Shown: positions 20,182 to 37,074 of the stretch, piece after piece | How the letters are laid out: every line of letters begins with the position of its first letter | Numbering within the stretch: position 1 is the first letter of the stretch | Source of the DNA: Cytophagaceae bacterium | Lineage (GTDB): Bacteria; Bacteroidota; Bacteroidia; Cytophagales; Spirosomataceae | Length of the DNA stretch: 37,403 nucleotides | Assembly (NCBI GenBank): GCA_026785975.1 | Contig: JAJAZB010000328.1 | Location: 1 to 37,403 of the forward strand | Direction: 5' to 3' | The notes under the pieces: model-generated | What the model was told of the DNA's origin: nothing | The model's database searches: none | Seen by the model: only the letters and a program-made list of their open reading frames with translations | Translations under genes and position numbers: made by a program

Positions 20182-20286
20182 GGTTCGTAAGTAGCGGTTA
20201 AGTTGGCAGGGGCAGCCTTTTCTGCCGACTCACCTATTACGATAAAACTAAAAATTAGAATCGAGTGGCTGCTTTTTCGATTACGA

Positions 20287-21276: not shown

Positions 21277-21310
21277 AGAGAGTGGTTTTTGCTTAGTTGT
21301 AGAAAAGTCA

Positions 21311-21374
21311 GAGCCTTGATTTTCAGAGCGAAAACAAGGCTCAGACGTAACGTAAACTTTCAGTCAGAAAGTTT
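21311..21374 (-). promoter_or_regulatory. Tandem hairpins between rpsD and rpoA
   Basis: On the transcript the first stem is AAACTTTC/GAAAGTTT with a 5-base loop (21354-21374). The second is GAGCCTTG plus TTTTC paired to GAAAA plus CAAGGCTC (21311-21342), 13 bp with one bulged base. They fill the gap after rpsD. S4 is the repressor of the alpha operon in Escherichia coli; a role as attenuator or processing site here is inference. Confidence 0.6.
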
Positions 21375-21381
21375 CGGCGGC

Positions 21382-21987
21382 TTACTTCGAGTACAATTCG
21401 ACGATGGCCTGCTCGTTGAAATTCTCCGGGATTTGGTCGCGCTCAGGAAAACTGATGAACTTACCCGTCATTTGGCTGTTGTCCCATTCCAACCAGTTGA
21501 ATCGCTTCGTGTTTTTTCCGGCCAGACTATCGCTGATGGTTTCAAGCGATTTTGACTTTTCACGAACGGCTACCAGTTGACCAGGTTTGAGCGAATAGGA
21601 AGGAATATTAACAAGTTCCCCATCGACGATGATGTGATTGTGTGATACCAGCTGGCGGGCGGCGCGGCGCGTAGGGGCAATACCCAGGCGGTACACGGTG
21701 TTGTCCAAACGGGCTTCGCAAAGTCTAAGCAAGTTCACACCAGTAATACCGTCCTTAATCGCGGCTTTGTGAAACAAGTTTTCAAATTGCCGCTCCAGAA
21801 TACCGTACGTGTATTTTACCTTTTGCTTTTCCTGCAATTGCAGGGCGTATTCTGATTTTTTACCCCGGCGACCTTTGCCGTGCATACCGGGGGCGTAATT
21901 CTTGCGACTAAGCGCTTTGCTGTTGCCGAGAATCGGCTCACCAAACTTTCGCGAGATTTTAGATTTTGGACCCGTGTAACGTGCCAT
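21382..21987 (-). CDS. rpsD: 30S ribosomal protein S4
   Basis: uS4 is a primary assembly protein of the small subunit that binds the five-way junction of 16S rRNA near the mRNA entry site. The 201-residue protein opens [19 protein letters not shown] and lacks the N-terminal zinc-binding cysteines. The S4 RNA-binding domain is visible at [30 protein letters not shown]. It is the upstream partner of rpoA, and the intervening gap carries two hairpins. Confidence 0.98.
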
Positions 21988-22095
21988 TCTTGTATAGTTT
22001 GAGTTGCCGGGCTTTAAGCATCCGACAAGGTAATTGTTTGGTTGAACATGGCCGTAAGGGGGTAATTACCAACCAACCTTACCAGCGTTGACTAC

Positions 22096-22491
22096 TTAAA
22101 CGCGGCGACGCTTAGGGGGACGGCAACCATTGTGCGGCATTGGTGTGATGTCTTTGATGACCATCACTTCAATACCCGCGTTTTGAATCGTACGAATTGC
22201 CGATTCCCGGCCCGCGCCCGGCCCTTTCACAAAAACCTCCGCTTTGCGCATTCCCGCTTCGTGAGCCACCTGAGCGGCATTGGAAGCGGCCGTTTGTGCG
22301 GCATAGGGGGTGTTTTTTTTGGAACCTTTGAATCCCATCTTACCCGCCGATGCCCAGGAAATTACCTGACCAGCATTGTTGGTGATGGAAATAATGATGT
22401 TGTTGAACGTAGCCTTGATGTGTACCTGGCCAACGGGTTCAACCGTTACGACGCGCTTTTTAGCTTTATCTTTCCGTTTTGCCTGAGCCAT
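22096..22491 (-). CDS. rpsK: 30S ribosomal protein S11
   Basis: uS11 sits on the platform of the small subunit near the E site and helps hold mRNA and 16S rRNA helices. The 131-residue length is normal. The N terminus is Lys-rich ([13 protein letters not shown]) and the core has [30 protein letters not shown] and [14 protein letters not shown], ending [13 protein letters not shown]. It lies 108 bases before rpsD and 87 bases after rpsM, both gaps longer than usual within this superoperon. Confidence 0.98.
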
Positions 22492-22496
22492 TTTTC

Positions 22497-22577
22497 GATT
22501 GGGAATACGAATTAGGAATTAAGAATTAGTTGAGTCAGGCTTTTTAATTCCTAATTCGTAATTCCTAATTCCCAATT
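22497..22577. repeat. Iterated-word palindrome between rpsM and rpsK
   Basis: Repeats of AATTAGGAATTA and AATTCGTAATTCC fill the gap. The left block (22497-22530) and right block (22542-22577) are imperfect inverted copies, with one unit of about nine bases missing on the left. In the mRNA it would form a hairpin just before rpsK. Confidence 0.8.
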
Positions 22578-22578
22578 G

Positions 22579-22956
22579 TTATTTAGTTGCCTTCTTCTTG
22601 TTTGCTACCGTCTTACGCTTGCCTTTGCGGGTACGGGAGTTGTTCTTAGTTTTCTGCCCCCGCACGGGTAGCCCTTTCCGGTGGCGTAAACCCCGGTAGC
22701 TACCAATGTCCATCAGGCGTTTAATATTGAGCTGAACTTCCGAGCGTAACGCGCCTTCAGTTTTAAACTCGTTACCAATCAGAGTACGAATCGCACTGGC
22801 TTCATCGTCGTTCCATTCAATCGCTTTTTTGTCACGATTGATACCCGCCCGGTCCAGAATAGTTTGAGCAGTGCTACGGCCAATACCGTAGATGTAAGTG
22901 AGGGCAATTTCGCCGCGCTTTTTATCGGGAATGTCAACCCCTGCAATTCTCGCCAT
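22579..22956 (-). CDS. rpsM: 30S ribosomal protein S13
   Basis: uS13 lies in the head of the small subunit and bridges to the large subunit and P-site tRNA. It is 125 residues: [19 protein letters not shown], the helix-two-turn-helix region with [12 protein letters not shown], then [18 protein letters not shown] and a very basic tail ending KKKATK. It begins 9 bases after rpmJ, the standard order. Confidence 0.98.
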
Positions 22957-22965
22957 AGCTTTAGA

Positions 22966-23082
22966 TTAACCTTGTCTTTGTTTGAATTTCGGGTTCTTCT
23001 TGTTGATTACGTAAAGTTTCCCCTTGCGACGGATGATTTTGCAATCCGCGCTACGCTTTTTAATGGAGGCTTTTACTTTCAT
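22966..23082 (-). CDS. rpmJ: 50S ribosomal protein L36
   Basis: This short gene encodes 38 residues ([20 protein letters not shown], then [18 protein letters not shown]). bL36 normally binds zinc through Cys-Cys-Cys-His; here only Cys14 remains and the other positions are Arg, Asn and Phe-like replacements, so this is the zinc-free form usual in Bacteroidota. It lies between infA and rpsM as expected. I confirmed it by reading codons from the ATG at 23082 to the TAA at 22966. Confidence 0.96.
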
Positions 23083-23135
23083 GATTTTTTCAAATTTGAG
23101 TTGACAAATCCAAAGAGTCAACTCGCGAAATACAC

Positions 23136-23354
23136 CTACTTGTAGCGGTAAACAATCCGGGCCTTCGATAAATCGTAAGGCGACATTTCTAATTTCACTC
23201 GATCTCCAGGCAGAATTTTAATATAGTTCATCCGCATTTTGCCGGAGATATGCGCGATAACTTCGTGTTTATTTTCGAGTTGTACCCGAAACATTGCGTT
23301 TGAGAGTGCTTCCAGTATGGTCCCGTCCGTTTGGATGGAATTTTGTTTGGGCAT
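23136..23354 (-). CDS. infA: Translation initiation factor IF-1
   Basis: IF-1 blocks the A site of the 30S subunit during initiation. The 72-residue OB-fold protein starts [20 protein letters not shown] and includes [40 protein letters not shown] and ARIVYRYK. It begins 9 bases after map and lies 53 bases before rpmJ. Length and motifs are standard. Confidence 0.98.
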
Positions 23355-23363
23355 ATAAATTCG

Positions 23364-24176
23364 TTAAGCGATTGCCAGGCTACGACTGGATAATACTTCT
23401 TCAATGTATTCAAAGGTCGTCAATATTTCTGGCTGGCCTTTTCGTACCGCAACCGTGTGCTCATAATGGGCCGAAGGTTTGTGGTCGGACGTGCGGATGG
23501 TCCAACCATCGGCTTCCTGAACTACGTTCTTCTTGCCAAGATTAATCATTGGCTCAATGGCGATGACCATTCCCTCCTGCAATTTAGGCCCCTGACCGCG
23601 CCGACCGAAATTAGGCACCTCGGGGCTTTCGTGCAGATATTTACCGACACCGTGCCCTACCAATTCGCGTACAACTCCGTAGCCAAACGACTCAACGTAG
23701 CTCTGAACGGCGTATCCGATATCGCCAATCCGTCCTCCATTCACTGCCTTTTCGATTCCCTTAAACAACGATTCGTACGTACGTTTCAAGAGTGCTTTTA
23801 CTTCAGGCCGTATTTCTCCGACGGGGTACGTGTAGGCACTATCAGCATGAAATCCGTTCAACAAGACACCGCAGTCGATTGAAATGATGTCCCCTTCTTT
23901 CAAAACATATTTACCGGGAAACCCATGCACTACCGCGTCATTAACTGAAATACACAATGACGCCGGGAATTTATTATACCCCTTAAACGAAGGTACTCCA
24001 CCCTGGTCGCGAATAAACTCCTCCGCTACCTGGTCGAGTTCTTTCGTTGTGACTCCTGGTTCAATCAAACGAGCCACTTCGGCGTGAGCCTTGCCGAGTA
24101 CCTGACCACTAACTTTGATCCGTTCGATCTCTTCGTCAGTCTTCAGATAAATCAGCTTTTTAGATGGTTGTGACAC
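23364..24176 (-). CDS. map: Methionine aminopeptidase type I
   Basis: This enzyme removes the initiator methionine from new proteins in the cytoplasm with two metal ions. The 270-residue protein has all five ligands: Asp in SIDCG, Asp in FHADSAYT, His in LVGHGVGKY, Glu in IAIEPM and Glu in AHYEHTV, plus the substrate His in VVHGFPG. Its start overlaps the end of secY by 17 bases, so translation is coupled. map between secY and infA is the classical spc-alpha junction. The C terminus (EEVLSSRSLAIA) is slightly extended. Confidence 0.97.
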   Translation of the reverse strand: MSQPSKKLIYLKTDEEIERIKVSGQVLGKAHAEVARLIEPGVTTKELDQVAEEFIRDQGGVPSFKGYNKFPASLCISVNDAVVHGFPGKYVLKEGDIISIDCGVLLNGFHADSAYTYPVGEIRPEVKALLKRTYESLFKGIEKAVNGGRIGDIGYAVQSYVESFGYGVVRELVGHGVGKYLHESPEVPNFGRRGQGPKLQEGMVIAIEPMINLGKKNVVQEADGWTIRTSDHKPSAHYEHTVAVRKGQPEILTTFEYIEEVLSSRSLAIA

Positions 24177-25476
24177 TTTCAGTTCTACCTTTTACCCGGC
24201 CTGATTTCATTAATCCTTCGTACCGACGCATGAGCAGATAACTCTCAATCTGCTGCAAGGTATCGAGCACCACACCCACCAGAATCAGCAAGGAAGTTCC
24301 CCCAAAAAACTGGGCAAATCCCCGCGACATACCGAATAGGTTAGCGATGGCGGGCAAAATTGCCACGATTGCCAACATAAAAGCGCCCGGTAACGTGATC
24401 CGGTCGAGTATTGTACCAATATACTCCGACGTTGCCATGCCGGGTTTCACGCCCGGAATGAACCCTCCGCCCCGCTTCATATCATCGGCAATCTGCTGAG
24501 GATTCACCGAAATAGCGGTGTAGAAAAACGTAAATATGATAATCAGAAAGGCAAACAAGAGGTTGTATTGCCAAGTCGTGTAATCAGCGAAAGATTGCGC
24601 CACTGAAGCCGCAAAATCGCTTTGCTCCGCAAACAAATTCCCAACCAAATTAGGAATAAACATGAGTGCCTGAGCAAAAATAATAGGCATGACCCCGGCG
24701 GCGTTCAACTTCAAGGGAATGTATTGTCGTTGGCCACCTGCCACCTTATTACCGATTACTTGTTTGGCGTACTGTACCGGAATCCGCCTTACAGCCTGGG
24801 TAAGCATCACGGCACCCATCACGACAAAGTACAACACAACGAGTTCAATAATGAAAATCAAAGCGCCTGACGTACCCCGCGCACCAGCCTCCTGCACAAT
24901 CGCTTCGGGGAAACGCGACACGATACCAATCATAATCAACAACGAGATACCGTTTCCAATTCCCTTATCCGTAATTCGTTCCCCCATCCACATACAAAAG
25001 ACGGTACCCCCTACCAGAATGACGGTCGAATAAACCGTAAAAAAACCACGGTCAACCAACAACGCTTCGGCGGCAATTTGAGATTGGGTGTACGTAATGG
25101 CTTGGGCTGCCGTAACAAATATGGTTAGTACCCGGGTAATCTGATTCAGTTTCTTACGACCTGATTCCCCGTCTTTCTGCATTTTCTGAAAGTACGGTAA
25201 TGCAATTGTCAGCAATTGAATGGCAATTGAAGCCGAGATGTAGGGCATAATCCCTAACGCAAACACGGAAGCATTGGAAAAAGCGCCCCCCAAAAACGTA
25301 TCCAACAATCCCAATAATCCGCCTTGCTCTTTGCCCAACTTGGTCGCATCTACTCCAGGCAGTACAATAAATGCACCCAGGCGGTAAACCGTAATAAACA
25401 ATAATGTATTGAAAATGCGCGTACGCAATTCATCAATAGAAAAAATGTTCTTGAAGGTGGTGATTAGCTTTTCCAT
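24160..25476 (-). CDS. secY: Protein translocase subunit SecY
   Basis: SecY forms the protein-conducting channel of the inner membrane. The 438-residue protein has about ten hydrophobic segments, the opening FKNIFSIDELRTRIFNTLLF, GGAFSNASVFALGIMPYISASI (plug and early helices), and the conserved MKRGGGFIPGVKPG loop. It ends in a basic tail RVKGRTESVTTI. It follows rplO in the spc operon, so membrane targeting is coexpressed with ribosome production. Confidence 0.98.
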   Translation of the reverse strand: MEKLITTFKNIFSIDELRTRIFNTLLFITVYRLGAFIVLPGVDATKLGKEQGGLLGLLDTFLGGAFSNASVFALGIMPYISASIAIQLLTIALPYFQKMQKDGESGRKKLNQITRVLTIFVTAAQAITYTQSQIAAEALLVDRGFFTVYSTVILVGGTVFCMWMGERITDKGIGNGISLLIMIGIVSRFPEAIVQEAGARGTSGALIFIIELVVLYFVVMGAVMLTQAVRRIPVQYAKQVIGNKVAGGQRQYIPLKLNAAGVMPIIFAQALMFIPNLVGNLFAEQSDFAASVAQSFADYTTWQYNLLFAFLIIIFTFFYTAISVNPQQIADDMKRGGGFIPGVKPGMATSEYIGTILDRITLPGAFMLAIVAILPAIANLFGMSRGFAQFFGGTSLLILVGVVLDTLQQIESYLLMRRYEGLMKSGRVKGRTESVTTI

Positions 25477-25529
25477 TCTGAAGTCTGTTCAGGTTCTCCC
25501 CCGTCGTTTATCAAATTCCAGACCAAAAT

Positions 25530-25976
25530 TTACACCTTGATTGCCTTACCGCCTGCTTTCTCAATGGCTTCAATGGCGGAAGCCGAGAACCCATTCGCCT
25601 GTACTTCAACAGCCGCATTGATATCTCCCCGATTCAGTATTTTAACCAGGTCTTTTTTGCCAATAAGTCCGTTGTTGCGCAACAATCCTATATCGATTAC
25701 ACTCGCATTGGTTTTCTCAAAGAGTGCCTGAATGACATCGAGATTGATCGCTTTATATTCGACCCGATTGATGTTTTTAAACCCAAATTTAGGAACCCGG
25801 CGCTGGAGTGGCATTTGCCCCCCTTCAAAACCACGCTTCCGGCTATAGCCCGAGCGGGATTGTGCTCCTTTATGTCCACGGGCGGAAGTGCCTCCCAAAC
25901 CGGAACCCGCACCCCGACCGACGCGCTTTCTTTCTTTCACCGAACCAGAGGCTGGCTTCAACGAACTAAGATTCAT
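25530..25976 (-). CDS. rplO: 50S ribosomal protein L15
   Basis: uL15 is a late-assembly large-subunit protein with an extended Gly/Arg-rich N terminus that threads into 23S rRNA. The 148 residues start MNLSSLKPASGSVKERKRVG and continue with GRGAGSGLGGTSARGHKGAQ and GFEGGQMPLQRRVPKFGF, then the globular C-terminal domain. It sits 53 bases upstream of secY. Length is normal. Confidence 0.98.
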   Translation of the reverse strand: MNLSSLKPASGSVKERKRVGRGAGSGLGGTSARGHKGAQSRSGYSRKRGFEGGQMPLQRRVPKFGFKNINRVEYKAINLDVIQALFEKTNASVIDIGLLRNNGLIGKKDLVKILNRGDINAAVEVQANGFSASAIEAIEKAGGKAIKV

Positions 25977-26044
25977 GATGCTATTTTGTTTGTGCAGACA
26001 AAGAAGCCGCTAAACTAATTTGTAGCCCAGCGAATTCTAATGTT

Positions 26045-26224
26045 TTACAATTCTTCAACTCTAACTAAATGGTTCACTTTTCGGATCATCCCGGCAATGG
26101 CTCCATTAAGCTCGACTTCAACGCTCCGGTTGATTTTCCCTAACCCCAAAGCGGTAATTGTACGCTTCTGAACTTCGGGCCGATCAATCGTACTTCTCAC
26201 TTGGGTAATTTTCACTTTTGCCAT
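26045..26224 (-). CDS. rpmD: 50S ribosomal protein L30
   Basis: I read this 59-residue protein from the ATG at 26224 to the TAA at 26045: [40 protein letters not shown] and [19 protein letters not shown]. It is the short bacterial uL30, with the conserved [14 protein letters not shown] and GMI.KV.HLV motifs, a large-subunit surface protein. It sits between rpsE and rplO as expected in the spc operon. Confidence 0.96.
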
Positions 26225-26279
26225 GACCTTGCAAATTTAAGCATCCGTGGCAGCCTTGCGAGCCGCCCGGAAGTTATGA

Positions 26280-26801
26280 TTATCCGTTAAATACGGTGGC
26301 CATTTTCACCCCACGCTGAAAAGCTACCTGGTGCGGCGCACGCATTTTGCTGAGGGCATCGATGGTCGCTTTAACTACATTGTGCGGGTTAGACGAACCT
26401 TTTGATTTAGCCAATACGTCTTTTACTCCGGCACTTTCCAACACGGCACGCATGGCACCTCCGGCAATAACACCCGTACCTGGAGCGGCGGGTTTAAGCA
26501 GAATAAAACCGCCACTAAATTTTCCAATCATTTCGTGGGGAACGGTGTGCTTGAGTAAAGGAACCTGCACCAAGTTCTTTTTGGCATCTTCGATTCCTTT
26601 GGCAATGGCATCGGTCACTTCATTCGCTTTACCGAGGCCAAACCCTACGACTCCGTTTCCATCGCCAACAACAACGATCGCTGAAAAACTGAAACGCCGG
26701 CCCCCTTTAACAACTTTGGCAACGCGGTTGATAGCAACCACCTTTTCTTTCAAATCCGACTCGTTAACTTTGGTAGCTCGAACTGTATGGAGTTGTGACA
26801 T
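26280..26801 (-). CDS. rpsE: 30S ribosomal protein S5
   Basis: uS5 sits at the mRNA entry channel with S3 and S4 and affects decoding accuracy. The 173-residue protein has the double-stranded-RNA-binding domain with [20 protein letters not shown] and the flexible loop, then the C-terminal domain with [20 protein letters not shown]-type sequence (here [10 protein letters not shown]). It begins 9 bases after rplR. Confidence 0.98.
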
Positions 26802-26810
26802 TGTCTTGGT

Positions 26811-27164
26811 TTAAAATTTGAGACCTCCTTCACGCGCTCCCTCGGCCAATGCCTTCACTTTACCGTGGTACAAGTAGCCATTTCGGTCAAATACAACGGC
26901 AGAAACTCCCTGTGCAATAGCTTTTTCAGCCAGTTTCTGACCAACCGTTTTAGCAATGCCAACCGTATTGGCTACATCGCCATCCATCTCTTTCGAAGAC
27001 GCGCTGACGAGCGTTATCCCTTTTAAATCGTTGATGATTTGCGCGTAAATACCACTATTCGAGCGAAAAACTGATAGCCGGGGGCGGTCTTCGGTTCCCG
27101 TCAGGCGGGTGCGGATGCTACGCTTAATGCGGGTCCGCCTTTCTTCTTTGCGATTATGTTTCAT
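26811..27164 (-). CDS. rplR: 50S ribosomal protein L18
   Basis: uL18 binds 5S rRNA in the central protuberance together with L5. The 117 residues start [20 protein letters not shown] and include [20 protein letters not shown], then [20 protein letters not shown] and GAREGGLKF, the usual C terminus. Position between rplF and rpsE is canonical. Confidence 0.98.
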
Positions 27165-27242
27165 TTCAAAACTTGTTTTGTGGATTACCGACCCACGCTT
27201 TCAGAGGCATCAAAGTCAATTATACTTCGACCCTCGCCCTAT

Positions 27243-27797
27243 TTATTTCTTACCGGCTGACTTACCCGCTTTACGGCGAACTTCCTCACCCACAAAGCGG
27301 ATCCCTTTTCCTTTGTAAGGTTCAACTTTACGCAAGGACTTAATTTTGGCGGCCACCTGTCCGATCAATTGCTTGTCCGTACCTTCAAGGATAACCTTGG
27401 GATTAGACCCTTTCTCGGTCAGCGTTGAAACTTTCAGTTCGGAGGGAACCGCTACAAACACGTTGTGTGAATAGCCGAGTGTCAACTCCAGGATGTTGCC
27501 TTGGCTGCTGGCTTTGTACCCAACCCCGATGATTTCCAGCTCCCGACGGTAGCCTATACTTACGCCAACCACCATATTATTAACTAAAGCACGGTACAAA
27601 CCATGCAGGGCTTTGTGCCGCTTCTGCTCCGTTGGGCGCTTTACGGTAAGTTCGCTACCATTAACCTCGACGGTAATGTCAGGATTGATGGTCTCGCTGA
27701 GGGTACCCCTCGGGCCTTTCACCGTAACAACGCTATTATCTACATTAACCGAAACGTCGGCGGGCAGCGTGATAATCTTATTTCCTATTCGTGACAT
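27243..27797 (-). CDS. rplF: 50S ribosomal protein L6
   Basis: uL6 lies near the factor-binding site of the large subunit. The 184-residue protein has the two tandem L6 domains, opening MSRIGNKIITLPADVSVNVD with VTVKGPRGTLSE, and the C-terminal domain with YKGKGIRFVGEEVRRKAGKS. The tail GKSAGKK is basic. It is 12 bases after rpsH. Confidence 0.98.
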   Translation of the reverse strand: MSRIGNKIITLPADVSVNVDNSVVTVKGPRGTLSETINPDITVEVNGSELTVKRPTEQKRHKALHGLYRALVNNMVVGVSIGYRRELEIIGVGYKASSQGNILELTLGYSHNVFVAVPSELKVSTLTEKGSNPKVILEGTDKQLIGQVAAKIKSLRKVEPYKGKGIRFVGEEVRRKAGKSAGKK

Positions 27798-27809
27798 GGC
27801 TTCAGTGGC

Positions 27810-28205
27810 TTAATAAACGTAGCACAACAGTTCACCTCCTACGTTGAGCGTCTTGGCTTCTTTGTCGGTCATGACTCCCTTCGAGGTCGAAAGAATGGCA
27901 ATCCCTAAACCGTTGAGCACACGAGGTGTCTCTTTGGCCCCGGTGTACTTCCTCAGACCGGGTTTACTAACCCGAGTCAGGTTTACAATAGCCGATTGCT
28001 TCGTGACGGGATTATACTTGAGCGCTATTTTGATCGTACCCTGTACCGTGGCCTCGTCGAACTTGTAGTTCTGGATAAAACCCTTCTCAAAAAGAACTTT
28101 CGTGATTTCCTTTTTGATATTGGAGGCAGGTATTTCTACGACCCGGTGGCGCGCCTTGATGGCATTGCGCAGGCGAGTCAGGTAGTCTGCGATGGGGTCT
28201 GTCAT
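27810..28205 (-). CDS. rpsH: 30S ribosomal protein S8
   Basis: uS8 is a primary binder of 16S rRNA helix 21 and the translational repressor of the spc operon in Escherichia coli. The 131-residue protein starts MTDPIADYLTRLRNAIKARH and contains SKPGLRKYTGAKETPRVLNG and GIAILSTSKGVMTDKEA, ending GGELLCYVY. Whether it autoregulates here was not tested, and no S8-site mimic was identified by eye. Confidence 0.98.
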   Translation of the reverse strand: MTDPIADYLTRLRNAIKARHRVVEIPASNIKKEITKVLFEKGFIQNYKFDEATVQGTIKIALKYNPVTKQSAIVNLTRVSKPGLRKYTGAKETPRVLNGLGIAILSTSKGVMTDKEAKTLNVGGELLCYVY

Positions 28206-28286
28206 GGTTGCAATGCGTTGTTCGCAAGGCCATTTTTGAAATTGGCTTGCAAAATTAGAGAAACAGAACGAATTATCAAACTTTTT

Positions 28287-28556
28287 CTACCAGGAGGACT
28301 TGGTGATGCCCGGAATTTTGCCATCAGAAGCCATTTCACGGAACGTTACCCTTGAAATGCCAAACTTGCGCATGTACCCGCGCGGACGACCCGTTAGCTT
28401 GCAACGATTGTGCAGGCGCACCGGGGAGGCATTACGGGGAAGTTTGTCAAGGCCGACGTAATCACCGGCTTCTTTAAGTGCTTTACGTTTGGCAGCATAT
28501 TTGGCTACTGTCGCTTCACGTTTGCGTTCACGCGCTTTTACGGATTCTTTTGCCAT
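28287..28556 (-). CDS. rpsN: 30S ribosomal protein S14, zinc-free type
   Basis: uS14 lies in the head of the small subunit. The 89-residue length and the absence of the CXXC pairs mark the longer zinc-independent type. It starts [20 protein letters not shown] and shows [31 protein letters not shown] and ends GITKSSW. It follows rplE by 36 bases. A gap of 81 bases with a weak stem (GCAAGGCCA against TTGGCTTGC) follows before rpsH. Confidence 0.98.
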
Positions 28557-28592
28557 TGTCGTGTATCGATTGACCGGGGAATACCGGATTGA

Positions 28593-29147
28593 TTATTTCT
28601 TCTGGTTGGCGAAGGGCATTCCGAGTGCTTTCAACAACTCAAGACTTTCTTCGTCAGTTTTAGCGGTGGTTACGAACGTGATGTCCATACCTGAGATTTT
28701 CTGAACTTTGTCAATCGAAATCTCCGGGAAGATAATTTGTTCTTTTACACCCAGCGTGTAATTACCACGTCCGTCAAATCCTTTATCGCTGATTCCTTTA
28801 AAATCCCGTACTCGTGGGAGAGCAATTGTCGTCAGGCGATCCAGGAACTCGTACATACGCTCACCACGTAAAGTTACTTTGGCACCAATGGGCATATTAG
28901 CCCGCAGTTTGAAGTTGGATATGTCCTTCTTCGAGATGGTAGGTACCGCTTTCTGCCCGGTGATGGTCGTTAATTCCTCAACGCCTACGTCAACTAATTT
29001 CTTGTCGGCAACGGCGGCACCGATGCCTTTGTTAACCACGATCTTTTCCAACTTTGGAACCTGCATGATTGACTTATACTGAAATTTTTCTTTCAGTGCG
29101 GTCATCACTTCACTGTAATACTTTTCTTTGAGTCTGGGAGTTGCCAT
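28593..29147 (-). CDS. rplE: 50S ribosomal protein L5
   Basis: uL5 binds 5S rRNA and contacts P-site tRNA through its loop. The 184-residue protein begins [20 protein letters not shown] and has [19 protein letters not shown], then [34 protein letters not shown] and [18 protein letters not shown]. The 89-base gap before it, after rplX, carries an AT-rich palindrome. Confidence 0.98.
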
Positions 29148-29186
29148 TGGTACAACTGATTTGTGGATTTCCGGCCCACTTGTTCA

Positions 29187-29238
29187 AATTTGAAAACGTG
29201 ATGATTTGAGAATTAATCATTCACCAAATTTTCAAATT
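29187..29238. repeat. AT-rich palindrome between rplX and rplE
   Basis: AATTTGAAAA at the left and ATTTTCAAATT at the right are inverted copies, and inside them GTGATGATT pairs with AATCATTCAC with one bulge. The words AATTTGAAAA and TGATTTGAG/TTTGAG recur at 33671-33732, so both are members of one class. Confidence 0.75.
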
Positions 29239-29575
29239 AAATAAAATCGCCTGATTTTTTACTGAAGCGTTGAAGCTTTCCTTTATCATTCAACTTCCGA
29301 CCCGTGCGGGTAGGCTCACCCGTTTTAGGATCAACAACCATTAAGTTGCTGATGTGGATAGAACCTTCACGTTTTTCAATTCCCCCCTGCGGGTTAACCG
29401 CCGTGGGTTTTACGTGCTTGGTTATCAGGTTGACACCTTCAATGGTAGCCCGTTGCTTATCAATCATCACCTGAGCTACTTTGCCGGATTTACCCTTTGC
29501 ATTGCCGGAAATTACCATGACGGTATCACCGGATTTGATGTGCAATTTGGGCTTCTTATTTACTTTCTTTTCCAT
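29237..29575 (-). CDS. rplX: 50S ribosomal protein L24
   Basis: uL24 starts large-subunit assembly and lies near the exit tunnel. The 112-residue protein has the KOW motif in GDTVMVISGNAKGKSGKV, then VNLITKHVKPTAVNPQGGIE, KREGSIHISNLMVVDP and PTRTGRKLNDKGK. It begins 24 bases after rplN. The short C-terminal extension (RFSKKSGDFI) is common in Bacteroidota. Confidence 0.98.
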   Translation of the reverse strand: MEKKVNKKPKLHIKSGDTVMVISGNAKGKSGKVAQVMIDKQRATIEGVNLITKHVKPTAVNPQGGIEKREGSIHISNLMVVDPKTGEPTRTGRKLNDKGKLQRFSKKSGDFI

Positions 29576-29599
29576 CGTTGGTTTCGGGTAGACTCCAGA

Positions 29600-29968
29600 T
29601 TAAAGCACTTCGGGGGCCAGTGAAACAATTTTCATGAATTGCTTTTCGCGCAGTTCCCGGGCTACAGGCCCAAAGATGCGAGTGCCGCGAGGCTCATCAT
29701 TATTGTTGAGCAATACGGCAGCATTGTCTTCAAATCGGATGTACGATCCGTCTTTACGACGCACCTCTTTTTTTGTACGAACCACCACGGCCTTTGATAC
29801 TGTGCCCTTCTTCAAGTTGCTCGAAGAAAGTGCCGATTTCACCGTTACCACGATTTTATCGCCAACGGATGCGTACCGTTTGCCCGTACCACCTAATACC
29901 CGGATAACCAGTACCTCCTTGGCACCACTATTGTCCGCTACGCCGAGTCTGGATTCTTGCTGAATCAT
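29600..29968 (-). CDS. rplN: 50S ribosomal protein L14
   Basis: uL14 lies at the subunit interface and is the docking site of the RsfS silencing factor. The 122-residue protein has the classical opening [20 protein letters not shown], then [20 protein letters not shown], and ends [12 protein letters not shown]. Length is exactly typical. Confidence 0.98.
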
Positions 29969-30057
29969 TGCCTTATTTGGTTACCTAAGTGTTTGCTAAC
30001 TGCTACTTGCTATCAACTTTGGAAGGCAGGTAACCGATAACTGGTCAATAAACCGGA

Positions 30058-30315
30058 CTACTTTGCTTTTTCGACAATACCGACCAAGCGCCAACGCTTG
30101 TTTTTCGATAATGGGCGGGTTTCCATAACCCGAATTGTATCACCAATGCCACACTCGTTATTTTCGTCGTGTACCATTAGTTTCGTCGTCTTTTTCTGAA
30201 ACTTCCCGTAGATAGGGTGCTTCACTTTCCGCTCAACCGTAATCGTTACGGACTTATCCATCTTGTCACTCAAGACGCGACCAACGCGGGTTTTTCGAAG
30301 ATTTCTCGTTTCCAT
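30058..30315 (-). CDS. rpsQ: 30S ribosomal protein S17
   Basis: uS17 is an early 16S-binding OB-fold protein. The 85 residues begin [20 protein letters not shown], with [39 protein letters not shown] and [18 protein letters not shown]. The start ATG at 30315 follows rpmC by 32 bases. Confidence 0.98.
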
Positions 30316-30347
30316 GCTTGGAATTTATTTACTGCTTCGCCAGCGGA

Positions 30348-30536
30348 TTATAGTTGACGGGCCGAAAGTTCAGTCATCAGGCGGGCAATCAGTTTACGCG
30401 AGGTGCGAAGACGCATTGGGTTTTCGATCGGTGAAATAGCGTGAGCAAATTTTAGCCGATCGAAGGCTTCTCTTTCCTGAGCAACTTGTTGCTTGAGGTC
30501 GTCCGCACTGAGCGATTTGATCTCCTTATTTTTCAT
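30348..30536 (-). CDS. rpmC: 50S ribosomal protein L29
   Basis: uL29 is a two-helix protein by the exit tunnel that helps bind signal recognition particle and trigger factor. It has 62 residues: MKNKEIKSLSADDLKQQVAQ, a middle helix, and NPMRLRTSRKLIARLMTELS followed by ARQL. Its place between rplP and rpsQ is standard. Confidence 0.97.
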   Translation of the reverse strand: MKNKEIKSLSADDLKQQVAQEREAFDRLKFAHAISPIENPMRLRTSRKLIARLMTELSARQL

Positions 30537-30598
30537 GGCCGTAATGGAATTACCGTAATGGAATTGCAGTAATGAAATTAGCTAAATGTGGTTTTTAC

Positions 30599-31027
30599 TT
30601 ATTCGGCTGCTTCCTCGTAATCACGCCGCACCACAAACCGGGTACGAAGAGGTAGTTTCTGGGCGGCCAGGCGAAGTGCTTCCTGAGCAAGTTCGAGCGG
30701 TACGCCAGTCGATTCAAATAGTATGGTGCCTGGTTTCACGTTGGCAACCCAGTATTCAGGGGCACCTTTCCCTTTACCCATCCGCACTTCAGCGGGCTTC
30801 TTGGTAATGGGATTATCAGGGAAAATACGAATCCACACCTGGCCTTCACGCTTCATGGCGCGGGTTACCGAGATACGGGCTGCTTCAATCTGACGGGCAG
30901 TAATCCGACCCGGTTCGAGCGACTTAATTGCAAACGAACCAAAGGCGATTTCGTGACCGCGCGTTGCTATGCCTTTAACCCGCCCTTTTTGCTGCTTACG
31001 AAACTTGGTTCTTCTGGGTTGTAACAT
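30599..31027 (-). CDS. rplP: 50S ribosomal protein L16
   Basis: uL16 organises the A-site side of the peptidyl-transferase centre. The 142-residue protein starts [20 protein letters not shown] and has the motifs [39 protein letters not shown]-like sequence, [19 protein letters not shown] and [19 protein letters not shown]. It begins 55 bases after rpsC. Confidence 0.98.
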
Positions 31028-31082
31028 GATTCTATGCCGTTAGGGGCGAAATCTTACTTTCACCTAAACCTCTTGTTTTAGA

Positions 31083-32018
31083 TTAACGACGTCCGCCGCC
31101 GCCAGCACCACCAGGACGATTGCCACCGCCAGCACCGCCAGGACGATTGCCGCCGCCGCCACCGCCGCCGGGACGACTACCGCCACGACCACCACCGCCA
31201 CCGGGACCACTACGGGCGCCGGGAGCACCCGCACCCTGGCCACCACGACCCCGGTCACCGCCCCGATCATCGCCACCGCGACCCCGACGATCACCCCGAT
31301 CATTGCGGTCACGCCGGTCATTGCGATCACCTCCGCGTGCATCACCGCCCGTGTTGCCAACCGCCGCGTAAGCATTGGGTGTCAAATCGCGCTTGCCGTA
31401 TACTTCACCTTTGAAAATCCAGACTTTAATACCGATTTTACCGTATACCGTCTGGGCTTCAGAAATAGCATAATCAATGTCGGCCCGGAGCGTGTGCAGT
31501 GGGATACGCCCTTCTTTGTACTGCTCGGTACGGGCCATTTCGGCACCCCCCAAACGACCCGACAGTTTAACCTTAATGCCCTGAGCGCCGACGCGCATAG
31601 CCGAAGCGATAGACTGCTTCATGGCCCGGCGAAACGAGATACGAGCCTCCAACTGCTGGGCGATGGTTTCGCCAACCAGTTTAGCATCAGTTTCAGGACG
31701 TTTAATTTCAAAAATGTTAATCTGAACGTCCTTACCGGTAATCTTCTTAAGTTCTTCTTTGATCTTATCGACTTCCTGACCGCCCTTGCCAATAACAACG
31801 CCAGGGCGGGCCGTGTTGATAGTCAACGTGATGCGCTTTAAAGTGCGCTCAATGATGACCTTCGAAATGGCTCCTTTGGAGATCCGCGCTTTGATATATT
31901 TACGAATTTGCTCGTCTTCAACCAGCTTCTCCGCGAAACTCTTGCCGCCGTACCAGCTTGAATCCCATCCACGGATAATGCCCAGGCGCAGACCAACGGG
32001 GTTAATTTTCTGTCCCAT
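31083..32018 (-). CDS. rpsC: 30S ribosomal protein S3 with long RGG-type tail
   Basis: uS3 lines the mRNA entry channel and has helicase activity with S4 and S5. The 311-residue protein starts at the ATG at 32018 ([20 protein letters not shown]). Residues 1-110 hold the KH domain with [10 protein letters not shown], and 111-220 the S3 C-terminal domain ending [14 protein letters not shown]. Residues about 225-311 are an extra tail: alternating Arg/Asp ([16 protein letters not shown]), then RGG/GGDR repeats, then PGGGGG and NRPGGAGGG repeats. It has no Lys or Glu and must be disordered. S3 tails occur in Bacteroidota, but this length and composition are striking. An in-frame start at 32078 overlaps rplV and is rejected. 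Confidence 0.97.
31087..31350 (-). repeat. GC-rich minisatellite encoding the S3 tail
   Basis: The tail is written in C/G-rich repeats. Near the 3' end a 24-to-27-base unit encoding NRPGGAGGG occurs twice, followed upstream by runs of CCG/CCA triplets and then by GATCACC/CGGTCA-like units for the Arg/Asp part. Repeats of this kind change length by slippage, so the tail may vary between strains. Confidence 0.8.
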
Positions 32019-32022
32019 TTTG

Positions 32023-32409
32023 TTATGCTTCGTTGTTAGTGTCTTCGGCGACAGCGCCTGGATTTGCGTTACTGGCAACGACCAGCGTTACGTGATTGGA
32101 CCGCTTGCGAATGCGGTGACCGCGTCCCTGGGGAGCAGGCCGCAGACGCTTCAACATGGGGCCACCGTCAACAAAAATGGTTTTTACGTACAGGTCGGCC
32201 TCTTCTAATTTCACCTGATCTTCAAATTTTTGCTGCCAGTTGGCTACCGCCGAAAGCAGTAACTTCTCCAGACGCGGTGCCGCTTGTTGCGGTTGAAACT
32301 TCAGAATGGCCAGCGCTTTATTAACGCTCTGACCGCGCACCAAATCAGCAACCAAACGCATTTTACGCGGCGAAGTTGGTACGTTTCGGAGTATGGCGAT
32401 TGCTTCCAT
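32023..32409 (-). CDS. rplV: 50S ribosomal protein L22
   Basis: uL22 lines the exit tunnel and its beta-hairpin reaches the constriction. The 128-residue protein shows [20 protein letters not shown], then [14 protein letters not shown] and [20 protein letters not shown] with [10 protein letters not shown] short acidic C-terminal tail ends EDTNNEA. The rpsC start follows 4 bases after its stop; a palindrome lies in the 76-base gap before it. Confidence 0.98.
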
Positions 32410-32417
32410 ATTTTATT

Positions 32418-32486
32418 AAATGCTGAATTATGAATGATGAATTCTGAATGAGAAAGCTAAAATTCAGCATTCAGCATTCAACATTC
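32418..32486. repeat. Iterated-word palindrome between rpsS and rplV
   Basis: The left block (32418-32449) repeats AATGCTGAATTATGAAT-like words and the right block (32462-32486) is made of ATTCAGCATTC units in inverted orientation. The same words build the element at 15151-15233, so a single dispersed family is present in the window. Confidence 0.82.
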
Positions 32487-32764
32487 TATCGTTTGCCTTT
32501 ATCTTTTTTCGCTACGTGGCCACGGAAATTACGTGTGGGCGCAAATTCACCCAGCTTGTGCCCGACCATATTTTCGGTGACGTAAACCGGAATAAACTTG
32601 TTGCCGTTGTGAACGGCGAACGTGTGACCGACGAAATCGGGTGAAATCATCGAGCGACGCGACCAGGTTTTAATGACCGACTTCTTACCCGCCGTGTTCA
32701 TCGTCTGAACTTTGTTGTCGAGGCGAAAGTCAATGTAAGGGCCTTTTTTGAGCGAACGTGCCAT
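32486..32764 (-). CDS. rpsS: 30S ribosomal protein S19
   Basis: uS19 sits in the head of the small subunit next to S13. The 92 residues start [20 protein letters not shown] and include [40 protein letters not shown] and [17 protein letters not shown]. Its ATG overlaps the rplB stop by one base (TAATG on the minus strand), so the two are translationally coupled. Confidence 0.98.
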
Positions 32765-33588
32765 TATTTCTTCTTTCTGCTAATGATCAACTGATTGGAT
32801 GCCTTCTTTCTACTACGGGTTTTCTTGCCCTTAGCCAACAAACCATTGCGCGAACGAGGGTGACCACCCGATGCCTTACCTTCGCCCCCACCCATGGGGT
32901 GATCGACCGGGTTCATGGCAACGCCGCGTGTACGGGGACGAATACCCAGCCAACGGCTACGGCCCGCTTTACCCTTGCTTTCGTTCATGTGATCCGGGTT
33001 GGACACCGATCCAACCGTAGCCCGGCACGTACCAAGAATCATGCGGGTTTCGCTCGAAGGCATTTTCAGAATCACGTACTTCCCTTCACGACCCAAAATC
33101 TGGGCGTAGGTTCCGGCACTCCGAGCCATGGAGGCCCCCTTGCCGGGAGTCAACTCGATGGCGTGAATGATCGTACCAATCGGGATGACCTGGAGCGGTA
33201 ATGAATTTCCTACTTCGGGGGGAATGTCGCTACCGGATTGTATTTTCTGGCCTACCTTCAGGCCCTGGGGAGCAACGATGTAGCGCTTTTCACCATCGGT
33301 ATATTGTACCAATGCGATACGAGCCGAACGGTTGGGATCGTACTCAATCGTCAGCACTTCAGCAACGATGTCCAGCTTGTCGCGCTTGAAATCAATGATT
33401 CGGTACTTGCGCTTGTGCCCCCCACCGATGTAGCGCATGGTGCGGCGACCCGTGTCGTTGCGGCCGCCGGTTCTCTTCAACACCGTCGTCAGGCTCTTTT
33501 CGGGCTTGCTGGCCGTGATGTCGGCAAACGACGGAGCTACGCGAAAGCGCTGGCCGGGGGTCGTTGGTCGGAGTTTTTTAACTGCCAT
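32764..33588 (-). CDS. rplB: 50S ribosomal protein L2
   Basis: uL2 is needed for subunit joining and peptidyl transfer. The 274-residue protein has the OB-fold N-terminal domain ([16 protein letters not shown]) and [18 protein letters not shown]-like sequence, here [18 protein letters not shown]. It also has [20 protein letters not shown] near the C terminus, where the conserved His of HPMGGGEG lies. It ends in a basic Lys-rich tail. A 137-base gap with a repeat separates it from rplW. Confidence 0.98.
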
Positions 33589-33670
33589 GTCGGTTGTTTC
33601 TGCGGCGGCACTATGTCCCGGTTTGCCAGTGCCTGCCCGTTTATATCAACCCGCCGGAAACGGGTTTTTT

Positions 33671-33732
33671 AATTTGAAAATGTGCTAATTTGAGAATTTG
33701 AAACGTTCAGCACATTTTCACATTCTCAAATT
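33671..33732. repeat. AT-rich palindrome between rplW and rplB
   Basis: TGAAAATGTGCT (33675-33686) and AGCACATTTTCA (33709-33720) are exact inverted copies. AATTTGAGAAT (33687-33697) can also pair with ATTCTCAAATT (33722-33732), so two alternative folds exist. It shares words with 29187-29238. Confidence 0.85.
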
Positions 33733-34013
33733 CCTTCATAGAAATCAATGACTTCACCGGCGGCTACGGTCACAACTGCTTTTTTGTGAGTTTGCGTACT
33801 GCCGCTGGTGATCCGGCTGCGGGTGCTGCGCGATTTCGATTTGCCAATCTGACGCATCGTTCGTACCCCTTCAACCTTCACGCCGTACAGTTTTTCAACC
33901 GCTTTTTTGATCTCGACTTTGTTGGCTTTCAATTCCACCTCGAAACCGTACTTGCCCTGATTATTCATGGCAGTGTACTTTTCGGTCAGGATTGGTCTTA
34001 CAAGAATGCCCAT
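33726..34013 (-). CDS. rplW: 50S ribosomal protein L23
   Basis: uL23 is the docking site for trigger factor and SRP at the exit tunnel. The 95-residue protein begins MGILVRPILTEKYTAMNNQG, continues KYGFEVELKANKVEIKKAVE and VEGVRTMRQIGKSKSR. It starts 5 bases after rplD. The C terminus (AAGEVIDFYEGI) matches the common Bacteroidota ending. Confidence 0.98.
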   Translation of the reverse strand: MGILVRPILTEKYTAMNNQGKYGFEVELKANKVEIKKAVEKLYGVKVEGVRTMRQIGKSKSRSTRSRITSGSTQTHKKAVVTVAAGEVIDFYEGI

Positions 34014-34018
34014 GGTAA

Positions 34019-34648
34019 CTATTGGTTAAAAAGCAATTCGATTTTAGAAACAGCCCCTTCGCTAATCAGCACCCGATCCGCATTGAGTACGTTATACGTC
34101 GTCAACTGCTCCGCTGTCGCGATTCGGGTTTTCTTTAAGTTACGGCCCGATAAGATCACATTCTGATTTGCTTCGGCCAGAACCAACAGAATCTTCGTAT
34201 CGCTCAGGGAAAACGCATTCAGTAAACTAACGAACGACTTGGTTCTGGGGGCATCGAAGCTGAAATCTTCCAATACCGTCAAAACCCCTTCCTGGGCTTT
34301 TGAGGCCAGCGCCGACTGACGGGCCAGCGTTTTCACTTTCTTATTGAGCTTGAAGGAATAATCGCGGGGACGGGGGCCAAAAATACGTCCGCCGCCTTTA
34401 AACAATGGGGATTTGATGGAACCGGCACGGGCACCGCCCGTTCCTTTTTGACGCTTGATTTTGCGCGTCGAGTGGCTTACCTCCGCCCGCTCTTTTGACT
34501 TGTGCGTACCCTGACGTTGGTTGGCCAAGTACTGCTTTACGTCGAGGTACATCGCGTGCTCATTCGGCGCAATGCCGAATACCTCGTCCGAAAGGGTAAC
34601 TTTTTTACCCGTTTCACTCCCGGAAATATTGAATACACTCAGTTCCAT
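34019..34648 (-). CDS. rplD: 50S ribosomal protein L4
   Basis: uL4 reaches into the exit tunnel with its extended loop and in Escherichia coli represses the S10 operon. The 209-residue protein starts MELSVFNISGSETGKKVTLS and has the tunnel loop VSHSTRKIKRQKGTGGARAG, then SPLFKGGGRIFGPRPRDYSF. The C-terminal domain has ALASKAQEGVLTVLEDFSFD. It starts 4 bases after rplC. No L4 leader hairpin could be recognised upstream of the operon. Confidence 0.98.
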   Translation of the reverse strand: MELSVFNISGSETGKKVTLSDEVFGIAPNEHAMYLDVKQYLANQRQGTHKSKERAEVSHSTRKIKRQKGTGGARAGSIKSPLFKGGGRIFGPRPRDYSFKLNKKVKTLARQSALASKAQEGVLTVLEDFSFDAPRTKSFVSLLNAFSLSDTKILLVLAEANQNVILSGRNLKKTRIATAEQLTTYNVLNADRVLISEGAVSKIELLFNQ

Positions 34649-34652
34649 CGGC

Positions 34653-35270
34653 TTATTTCTCCAGAATGACGAATGAATTTTTTGCGCCCGGTATCGATCC
34701 GCTCACGGCAATGAGGTTTTGCTCAAGCATTACCTTCACCACACGCAGGTTCTGAACCTTCACCCGGTCATTGCCCATGCGACCTCCCATGCGGAGACCT
34801 TTAAATACCCGTGAAGGAAACGAGCAGGCCCCAATCGAACCGGGGTGACGTGCCCGGTTGTGCTGACCGTGCGTCGCACCACCCACTCCGCTGAATCCGT
34901 GACGCTTCACAACGCCCTGAAAACCCTTGCCCTTCGAGGTACCAATCGCATCGACAAATTCACCTTCCGTGAAGAGATCGGCCGTTACGGTATCGCCCAG
35001 ACTGAACGCCTTTTCAAATTCTTTGAATTCCACCAGTTTGCGCTTGGGCGTTGTGCCCGCCTTCTTGAAGTGGCCTTGAAGCGGCTTCGTGGTGTTTTTT
35101 TCTCTCTTGTCGCCGAAACTTAACTGAACGGCGGCGTAACCATCTTTTTCAACGGTCCTGACCTGTGTAACCACGCAGGGTCCGGCTTGAATCAGCGTAC
35201 ACGGTACGGCAGTGCCGTCGGCGTTGTAGAGGCTGGTCATGCCAATTTTTTTACCAATAATACCTGACAT
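34653..35270 (-). CDS. rplC: 50S ribosomal protein L3
   Basis: uL3 begins large-subunit assembly and touches the peptidyl-transferase centre. The 205-residue protein opens [20 protein letters not shown] and has [20 protein letters not shown] with the following [20 protein letters not shown], the segment holding the methylated glutamine in many species, and [20 protein letters not shown]. It is the first gene of the superoperon here. rpsJ, normally before it, is not found in the upstream 522 bases. Confidence 0.98.
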
Positions 35271-35792: not shown

Positions 35793-37067
35793 CTACTGCC
35801 CGGCAGCACTGACCCGACGCAGGTTGTAGAACAGTTTTTCAAGCAGTCGTGAGTCATCGGTCAGGATTTCTGCCGAAGCACTCATTCCCGTTTTGTAGGA
35901 TAGCGATTTGCCGTAATTCGTCGTCAGGCCCGCAGGCAGGGCCACTTTAGCCAGGAACACGCTGTCGCGCACAGATACCTCGGCAATGGATTCGATGCGT
36001 CCGCGCACGGCACCGAATTCCTGAAACGGATACCCCGCAAATTTGACCAACACCGTTTGCCCGGCTTTTACTTTGCCAAAATTCTGCTGCGGTACGCGCA
36101 ATTCCCCGAAGTACCCGGTGTGGACGGGGACAATGTAAAATAATTCCTGCCCCATCGCCAAGTGCTGGCTCTCCTGCACGAACGACGGAAACACCACCTG
36201 CCCGGCCACGGGTGCCGTCAACACGTACTTCGCCTTCCAGGCTTCCGCCGCGCTGCGCAGGGTATTGAGCGTTTGCAGAAACTGGTCGCGCTCTTCGGCC
36301 ACCTGCTGGTCGAGTTCCAGGATTTCCTTTTGTTTGGCCCGTTGCGCCACGCCGTTGTTAATGAGCGCCGCGCCAGTTTGTTGCAGCGGAAACGAGCGGG
36401 CGAGGCGTTTGCTTTCTTCGCGTTTCAGTTCCAACGGAGCAATCACCTTTTGCTCGGCCAGGCTCAGTTGCACCTCGTAGTCGTCCTGGGCCAGTTGCTG
36501 ATCGCGTTGCTGGAGGGTGCGCTGTTCGCGGAGGTTGTCAGCTAAGGCCGCCAAATCCCGAATTTCCTCGTGCAGCAGTGCTTTTTTCTGGCTGTAAAAT
36601 CCGCCCGCCAGGTAAGCCTTGAGCTGAATGTGCGCCTGCTCGAAGGTTTGAAAACTGGCTTGTAATTCACCGAGTTGGTGGAAGTTGCGCAAGTTGGGCA
36701 TGGATAAACGTTCGAGTTGGTCCCGGCGGGCAAGGTTCCAGGCGCGTTCCAATTCAGCCATCAGCCGCAGCACGTCTTCGTGGCGGGCGGTGCTTTCGAG
36801 GTAGGCTAGCGATTGCCCAACGTTTACCCGACTCCGTTCGGCGACCAGCAGACGCACTAGTTTGCCCTCGGTGCGGGTCAGTACGGCTTTGGGGGCGTTG
36901 AGCGAAGTGAGTTTGAACGACGCCCGCACCACGTCGGGGTAGCGGATTACCCACGCGCCCGTCAGCACCCCGGCCAGCACCAGCGCCACGAGCGTAATGC
37001 CCCAACGCAACAGCCAGCGCGGAGGGCGGGCAATGAGTTCCTGGACTTCTTCGGAGCGGAGTTCCAT
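35793..37067 (-). CDS. HlyD-family periplasmic export adaptor
   Basis: The protein is 424 residues from the ATG at 37067 (a GTG one codon earlier is possible). One membrane helix lies at about residues 20-42 (LLRWGITLVALVLAGVLTGA). A short lipoyl-like segment (GKLVRLLVAERSRVNVGQSL) follows, then a long coiled-coil hairpin (about 85-280), the second lipoyl half (VAGQVVFPSFVQESQHLAMG), and a beta-barrel region (GQTVLVKFAGYPFQEFGAVR). Such adaptors link a type I, often peptidase-containing, ABC transporter to an outer-membrane channel; no transporter gene is next to it in the window. It stands alone, followed by a hairpin. Confidence 0.88.
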   Translation of the reverse strand: MELRSEEVQELIARPPRWLLRWGITLVALVLAGVLTGAWVIRYPDVVRASFKLTSLNAPKAVLTRTEGKLVRLLVAERSRVNVGQSLAYLESTARHEDVLRLMAELERAWNLARRDQLERLSMPNLRNFHQLGELQASFQTFEQAHIQLKAYLAGGFYSQKKALLHEEIRDLAALADNLREQRTLQQRDQQLAQDDYEVQLSLAEQKVIAPLELKREESKRLARSFPLQQTGAALINNGVAQRAKQKEILELDQQVAEERDQFLQTLNTLRSAAEAWKAKYVLTAPVAGQVVFPSFVQESQHLAMGQELFYIVPVHTGYFGELRVPQQNFGKVKAGQTVLVKFAGYPFQEFGAVRGRIESIAEVSVRDSVFLAKVALPAGLTTNYGKSLSYKTGMSASAEILTDDSRLLEKLFYNLRRVSAAGQ

Positions 37068-37074
37068 CACGGGA

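Follow-up and report, generated by a model that had tools for sequence, protein, structure and literature searches.

A candidate constraint on net charge in the variable C-terminal tail of ribosomal protein S3 of Bacteroidota

In Bacteroidota, ribosomal protein S3 (uS3) carries a C-terminal tail whose net charge is similar among orthologues with tails of very different lengths, suggesting a tuned electrostatic arm that grips RNA rather than a stretch of junk. On the comparisons described below, we consider the chances about even that what is conserved in this tail is a net positive charge (around +8 for Bacteroidota, +10 in the S3 studied here) rather than sequence, length or the number of RGG motifs, and, jointly with this, that the tail would tether RNA electrostatically at the head of the 30S subunit, with a fixed strength and a reach that varies. 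The S3 studied here is encoded in the window, by which we mean the whole stretch of DNA that was analysed (37,403 nucleotides, contig JAJAZB010000328.1 of a Cytophagaceae bacterium). Many ribosomal proteins end in disordered segments, most of them without an explanation, and the S3 tail offers a testable number, a net charge of about +8 across the phylum despite changes in length and sequence, so that the vague notion of an RGG-like tail becomes a question of charge versus length that can be separated by experiment. The constancy of this charge also bears on how ribosomes that work without Shine-Dalgarno (SD) pairing hold mRNA.

The S3 gene and its tail in the window

The open reading frame starts with the ATG at 32018 (MGQKINP) and its stop codon occupies 31083-31085. 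The translated protein matched the NCBIfam profile TIGR01009 over residues 1-209 with 302 bits, against a cut-off of 114.5, as expected of a bacterial uS3, and the two Pfam domains PF07650 and PF00189 (KH_2 and Ribosomal_S3_C) both scored above their cut-offs in the core. The neighbouring genes, named by eye, are rplV (32023-32409) and rplP (30599-31027), which gives the usual L22-S3-L16 order of the S10 operon. The source assembly comprises 4.93 Mb in 523 contigs, is 88% complete, and is the sole genome of its genus in our sample. The features of the gene are as follows.

31083-32018, minus strand: rpsC, ribosomal protein S3 (uS3), 311 residues, from profile matches and its position between rplV and rplP
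31401-32018, minus strand: conserved S3 core, residues 1-206 (KH_2 and S3 C-terminal domain), from domain matches; pooled pN/pS 0.021
31374-31400, minus strand: anchor, residues 207-215 (YGKRDLTPN), with near-invariant positions in 39 Bacteroidota S3 proteins
31086-31373, minus strand: variable tail, predicted to be disordered, residues 216-311 (96 residues), 19 basic and 9 acidic, net +10
31239-31346, minus strand: Arg/Asp polyampholyte block, residues 225-260, 12 Arg and 9 Asp in the translation
31086-31238, minus strand: Gly/Pro/Arg block with NRPGG repeats and a terminal RR, residues 261-311, 7 Arg and no acid

The anchor positions that were nearly invariant in the 39 proteins are G208, K209, L212 and P214. 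An earlier, sequence-only reading of this DNA had placed at 31083-31350 an 87-residue tail, residues 225-311, rich in Arg, Asp, Gly and Pro and free of Lys and Glu. These residues occupy 31086-31346, so the placement was correct within a few bases, and the composition was borne out by count (41 Gly, 19 Arg, 9 Asp, 6 Ala, 5 Pro, 4 Asn, 2 Ser and 1 Gln, with no Lys or Glu, net +10). The same residues hold eight RG, five RGG and three RPGG motifs, that is, clustered RG/RGG repeats, and the charges are unevenly spread, with all nine Asp and 12 of the Arg in residues 225-260 and the other seven Arg in the acid-free residues 261-311.

The tail is predicted to be intrinsically disordered, without a stable fold. 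An AlphaFold2 model built on a 39-sequence alignment gave pLDDT below 50 throughout residues 207-311 (mean pLDDT of the model 65), although the alignment was shallow, as judged from the pTM of 0.41 and from residues 1-16, which also had low pLDDT, and the low values in the tail are thus weak proof of disorder. Two long open reading frames overlap the tail region, a Val/Ala-rich one on the minus strand (31064-31375) and a Pro-rich one on the plus strand (31120-31371), and both look like by-products of GC-rich Gly and Arg codons rather than genes. Upstream of the ribosomal operon there is a frame of 425 residues (35793-37070, minus strand), which we take, by eye, to resemble a membrane-fusion adaptor of the HlyD type.

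Tail composition and net charge among relatives

S3 was matched in 139 of the 150 genomes examined from the host family and in 153 of 158 in the phylum sample. The first round of reading covered 190 S3 loci, some 15 of which belong to other phyla, with one stretch cut short (L163, which shows no tail and was excluded), and locus groups were assigned from record titles and search kinship. The 57 family tails read first were those of the 30 best-scoring loci and of 27 further genera; 20 more family tails were read later. Two loci, L098 (Dyadobacter) and L075, stood under other phyla in the comparisons of tail features and of core with tail, so this group is blurred in those comparisons, and both were excluded from the net-charge test. 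By eye, L075 combines an Alphaproteobacteria record title with a Bacteroidota-like S3, and L108 an Oceanobacillus title with an S3 tail of alphaproteobacterial type, mismatches that are likely due to contamination or mislabelling. The tail of locus L005 is identical to that of the Arcicella aurantiaca locus L032, from which the host family is probably that of Arcicella, Dyadobacter and Runella.

All 57 family tails were net positive, with lengths of 44-106 residues counted from residue 207. After the anchor, their mean composition was 36% Gly, 20% Arg, 11% Asn and 8% Asp, with only 1.6% of the residues F, W, Y, I, L, M, V or C. At least three RG motifs were present in 54 of the 57, a C-terminal basic cluster in 54, and RGG in 55. 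The sequence-only reading had held that a specific function would be doubtful if tail composition were random in close relatives; with these frequencies, it is not. Most of the sampled tails outside the family were about 26 to 100 residues long, and ten Bacteroidota loci were practically tail-less, with 1-17 residues and a net charge of 0 to +2.

RGG motifs were absent or single in several Bacteroidota tails of about 30-50 residues, so that the motif is not conserved among orthologues, and short tails attained the same net charge with Lys and without RGG. The proportion of Arg among basic residues, Arg/(Arg+Lys), followed core GC3, with rho values of 0.64 in the family and 0.53 in 163 Bacteroidota tails. 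RGG was dropped as a candidate conserved feature because the use of Arg or Lys follows GC and because several shorter tails lack the motif altogether.

Eukaryotic RGG/RG RNA-binding regions are disordered, carry Arg-Gly repeats, and contain few hydrophobic residues, and the S3 tails resemble them in each of these traits. The tails differ from these regions in that RGG count is not conserved, Lys partly replaces Arg in low-GC relatives, and aromatic residues are almost absent. Of the likeness to eukaryotic RGG proteins proposed from the sequence, then, the predicted disorder and the RNA-binding-like character of the tail stand, and RGG as the conserved feature does not. Such regions are also named in the accessible part of a study reporting low-complexity regions as a frequent feature of prokaryotic ribosomal proteins, and Arg-rich ones as frequent among RNA-binding proteins (PMC6821194). 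A protein search with the tail alone detected no second protein of this kind in the assembly; the same query missed S3 in all 59 other S3-positive genomes, and its sole other match was weak and lay at a non-S3 place in genome G014, so that the negative result carries no weight. A DNA pattern for RGGxRGG, which misses this S3 tail by design, gave nine matches against three for the control pattern, and no clear RG tail was seen among them on quick reading.

To express tail charge, the sum of Arg and Lys minus that of Asp and Glu was counted after the nine-residue anchor, and tails shorter than 25 residues were excluded from the charge tests. With one S3 per genus, from 35 of 36 family genera, tail length ranged from 35 to 96 residues, basic residues from 12 to 21, and acidic residues from 5 to 10, and net charge ranged from 6 to 11, with a mean of 8.3 and an sd of 1.00. 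A null in which tails were random draws from the pooled tail composition (iid null) had an sd of 5.12, and none of 1000 null sets was as tight. A further 106 Bacteroidota loci (17-91 residues after the anchor, 7-18 basic, 0-11 acidic) had a mean net charge of 7.8 and an sd of 1.25, against 4.96 for the null; ten of these loci were named relatives, probably of the same family, and when these and repeated tails were removed, the 93 distinct tails that were left had a mean of 7.7, an sd of 1.31 and a range of 5-12, against a null sd of 4.83. Resampling the tails in blocks of up to 20 residues again gave no set as tight (0 of 500; mean null sd at least 3.4), so multiplication of charge-neutral units alone does not yield the constancy. 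The variance of net charge among orthologues is thus below that of each null, as would be found if tail charge were under constraint.

Shared ancestry was accounted for by phylogenetic contrasts on 161 S3 cores, in which net charge evolved more slowly than it would under independent change of basic and acidic residues, at 0.169 of that rate (bootstrap 0.122-0.242), and the partial correlation between basic and acidic counts, given length, was 0.80 (0.73-0.86; 161 tips). Without the host family, the rate ratio was 0.157 and the partial r 0.77. In the family, whole-S3 charge had an sd of 1.4, against 1.1 for the tail, and the charges of core and tail were uncorrelated, so that the constrained object is the tail and not S3 as a whole. 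Net charge climbed slightly with tail length (slope 0.044 per residue), and lineages within Bacteroidota differed in their own value, from 5 to 12. The S3 tail in PDB 9i5v, as far as it was aligned, has a net charge of +8.

A narrow range of net charge might also reflect a limit of physical chemistry, in which charge would be capped so that the tail does not stall its own synthesis and free S3 does not stick to RNA, with no specific partner. It would fit this account that the first block intermixes Arg with acidic residues, that the mean position of the acidic residues lies in the first half of the tail in 56 of the 57 family tails, and that constraint falls on net charge rather than on sequence. 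A cap leaves the floor unexplained, however, since none of the 181 listed tails of at least 25 residues had a net charge below +5, and we regard such a limit as an unlikely full account.

Selection, control tails and further S3 genes

Selection on the tail was evaluated from pooled pN/pS in pairs of relatives. Gapped alignments of 23 hand-picked pairs, some of which share a member, gave 0.135 for the tail and 0.021 for the core; the window's own S3 formed two more pairs, kept outside this pool, with tail values of 0.18 and 0.22. Gapped alignments of low-complexity tails inflate similarity and create false compensating columns, and ungapped pairs were therefore used as a check. In 17 pairs of equal length, pooled pN/pS was 0.37 for the tail (0 to 0.61 in single pairs) against 0.021 for the core. 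Both versions are below 1, indicating purifying selection on the tail that is weaker than that on the core. A column-based table of charge compensation was discarded as evidence because of the same artefacts of gapped alignment, and per-tail counts and phylogenetic contrasts were used in its place.

These values bear on the simplest alternative, that the tail is neutral ballast, a functionless low-complexity end whose length changes by slippage on a tolerant solvent surface. Tail length does range from 35 to 96 residues within the family, close relatives differ by indels, and the last third of the tail contains partial tandem DNA repeats with units of 27 bp and 30 bp (88% and 77% matches), so that duplication contributed material to the tail. 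But pN/pS is below 1 with and without gaps, and charge compensation persists under both phylogenetic contrasts and block resampling. Moreover, tail GC in the window is 0.73 yet tail GC3 is only 0.41, under the core GC3 of 0.55, and among the 57 family tails GC3 was lower in the tail than in the core in 39, with a correlation between the two of rho 0.82. The high GC of the tail therefore stems from the choice of amino acids and not from third positions, and the tail is more than a product of GC-rich slippage. Neutral ballast is accordingly disfavoured, and of the explanations considered here it is the least likely, with only a slim chance of being right.

Two other sets of tails in the family were examined by the same measures. 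In bL17 tails from 30 family loci, the best-scoring 30 of 40 matched genomes, phylogenetic contrasts gave a partial r of -0.04 and a residual ratio of 1.03, that is, no compensation; restricting the set to tails shorter than 100 residues (23 loci) gave a partial r of 0.28 (-0.09 to 0.56). The sd of bL17 net charge was nevertheless 0.62 of the null, and none of 500 null sets was as tight. For the tails of RRM proteins (n=27), in which paralogues were mixed and no tree correction was made, the ratio of sd to null was 0.55 (0 of 500) and the partial r 0.33, compared with 0.20 and 0.89 for S3; this count excludes two of the 30 RRM loci, including that of the window's own genome, and one tail of seven residues. 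Both control tails are narrower than the iid null, which is therefore lenient, and S3 differs from them in degree, so that the comparison of tail with tail carries more weight than that with the null.

The control tails are also diverse in themselves. Those of the RRM proteins (L253-L281) span 7-157 residues and are mostly basic, some of them RG-rich. In several family genera bL17 tails reach 130-150 residues (L234-L236, L238-L240 and L242), with a segment like a helix-hairpin-helix, seen in the part read of most of them, and one 70-residue piece of such a tail scored 20.4 bits with PF00633, under the cut-off of 24. The window's own bL17 (19597-20181) has a tail of 76 residues, much shorter than these.

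Before further S3 genes were read, we wrote down the prediction that their tails would have net charges of 5 to 12 with an sd of about 1.2. All 40 further genes, which came from genera near those sampled earlier, fell inside the predicted range; 37 of their tails were new (three had been seen before) and 35 were distinct, two being repeats among the 40. The 20 genes from the family had a mean net charge of 8.15 and an sd of 0.73, and the 20 from the rest of the phylum a mean of 8.00 and an sd of 2.07, a wider spread than the predicted 1.2 or so, though all 20 were in range. Ten S3 tails of alphaproteobacterial type (L101-L110; 20-61 residues, 3-16 of them basic) had net charges of -1 to +1. 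S3 tails in general therefore do not need positive charge, and a net charge near 0 is perhaps a second set point, as judged from ten tails only.

A possible role at the mRNA entrance

In the available part of a structural study, uS3, uS4 and uS5 surround the mRNA entrance (PMC10085706), as the sequence-only reading had assumed for S3, and the likely partner of the tail is on this ground incoming mRNA or rRNA of the head. A constant charge on tails of differing length is compatible with an arm whose hold on RNA is fixed and whose reach is not. As the sequences show, the tail is a lineage-wide extension, predicted to be disordered and under purifying selection, in which gains or losses of Arg and Lys are offset by Asp and Glu. 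It may form an electrostatic arm located on the solvent face of the 30S head, next to where mRNA enters. Such an arm would bind RNA non-specifically and with fixed strength, be it mRNA on its way in or the rRNA of a head under assembly, and neutral Gly, Asn, Gln and Pro residues, together with paired Arg and Asp, would alter its reach only. In its most specific form, the proposal is that selection keeps a net charge of about +8 over a roughly fivefold range of length, and that this charge-metered arm takes hold of RNA where mRNA enters, at fixed strength but over an adjustable distance, and so keeps mRNA on ribosomes in which the anti-SD sequence is locked away; this full chain is a speculative one and probably goes too far.

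The rRNA partner could also be the only one. S3 binds the 3' domain of 16S rRNA, and the tail might act as a clamp that grips 16S rRNA while the 30S head folds and take no part in translation by the finished ribosome. A constant charge would be apt for a brief hold on rRNA, but relatives without a tail must presumably assemble their heads too, and we hold this account to be doubtful, if somewhat less so than the other alternatives.

For mRNA as the partner, the use of SD sequences is relevant. Sequestration of the anti-SD has been published for Bacteroidia (PMC9976891, seen in part), and the SD-poor counts obtained here agree with it, as does the earlier description of this lineage as relying little on SD pairing. 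SD-like motifs precede two of 25 genes in the window and 3% of 159 genes from 29 family loci, no more than a control motif does (4%). Among the ribosomal-protein genes compared (20181-35270 of the window, and L002-L110), such motifs differ in frequency within Bacteroidia: eight loci of Dyadobacter and Runella, with 9-13 genes apiece, have none, L089 has them before 5 of 13 genes, and L079 before 6 of 12.

The sequence-only reading had linked the tail to the loss of SD pairing, and one may suppose that the tail captures incoming mRNA and so replaces that pairing, the anti-SD being sequestered. The lineage is indeed SD-poor, S3 lies at the mRNA entrance, and over all 116 loci tail length correlated with the SD fraction at rho -0.53. 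In nine tail-less Bacteroidota loci, SD motifs preceded 47 of 101 genes, with per-locus values of 2/12 to 9/11, though two of these loci had just 3 of 12 and 2 of 12. Within Bacteroidia the correlation was weak (77 loci, rho -0.25, p 0.03) and vanished once loci from the family search were set aside (61 loci, rho -0.07, p 0.58), and the sign flipped when likely family members were also removed (50 loci, rho +0.37, p 0.009). Long tails of 54-88 residues were present in loci that use SD motifs, namely L079 (6 of 12 genes), L215 (10 of 13) and L104 (7 of 11). Furthermore, SD pairing acts at the platform of the 30S subunit, and S3 is located at the entry side. Tail size does not track SD loss beyond deep splits, and the proposed link with SD loss was not upheld. 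Recruitment of mRNA by the S3 tail is possible, but a tail that replaces SD pairing is distinctly improbable, being favoured only over neutral ballast.

Extensions of bacterial ribosomal proteins have been described as lineage-specific and mostly disordered, several of them near the mRNA entrance, in Mycoplasma pneumoniae and Cutibacterium acnes, and a C-terminal extension of 17 residues is mentioned for S3 of M. pneumoniae (PMC9534751, PMC10085706). The accessible parts of these papers describe no RG/RD-rich S3 tail or charge constraint; the tails reported here reach 106 residues, and their net charge was measured phylum-wide. Disordered regions with conserved net charge are known from yeast Ste50 and from its proteome (PMC6634968), where, according to the part of the paper available, bulk charge is likewise constrained while sequence diverges, and variance was also tested against a null. 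That null was simulated evolution, unlike the ones used here, and our case is a bacterial ribosomal protein examined with phylogenetic contrasts, two other tails and held-out genes. Disordered extensions of ribosomal proteins and conserved net charge of disordered regions in yeast are thus known, and what appears to be new is the S3 tail with its charge constancy, of which we found no account for Bacteroidota in a literature search largely confined to papers outside subscription.

The S3 of Flavobacterium johnsoniae (PDB 7jil, 252 residues) has the same core and anchor region and a shorter tail. In our sample, the S3 of L154 is of the same length as that of 7jil and matches it over the aligned part of the tail, except for one anchor residue (Glu for Asp). 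This L154 tail contains a single RG, lacks RGG, is richer in Lys than that of the window's S3, and carries a net charge of +8.
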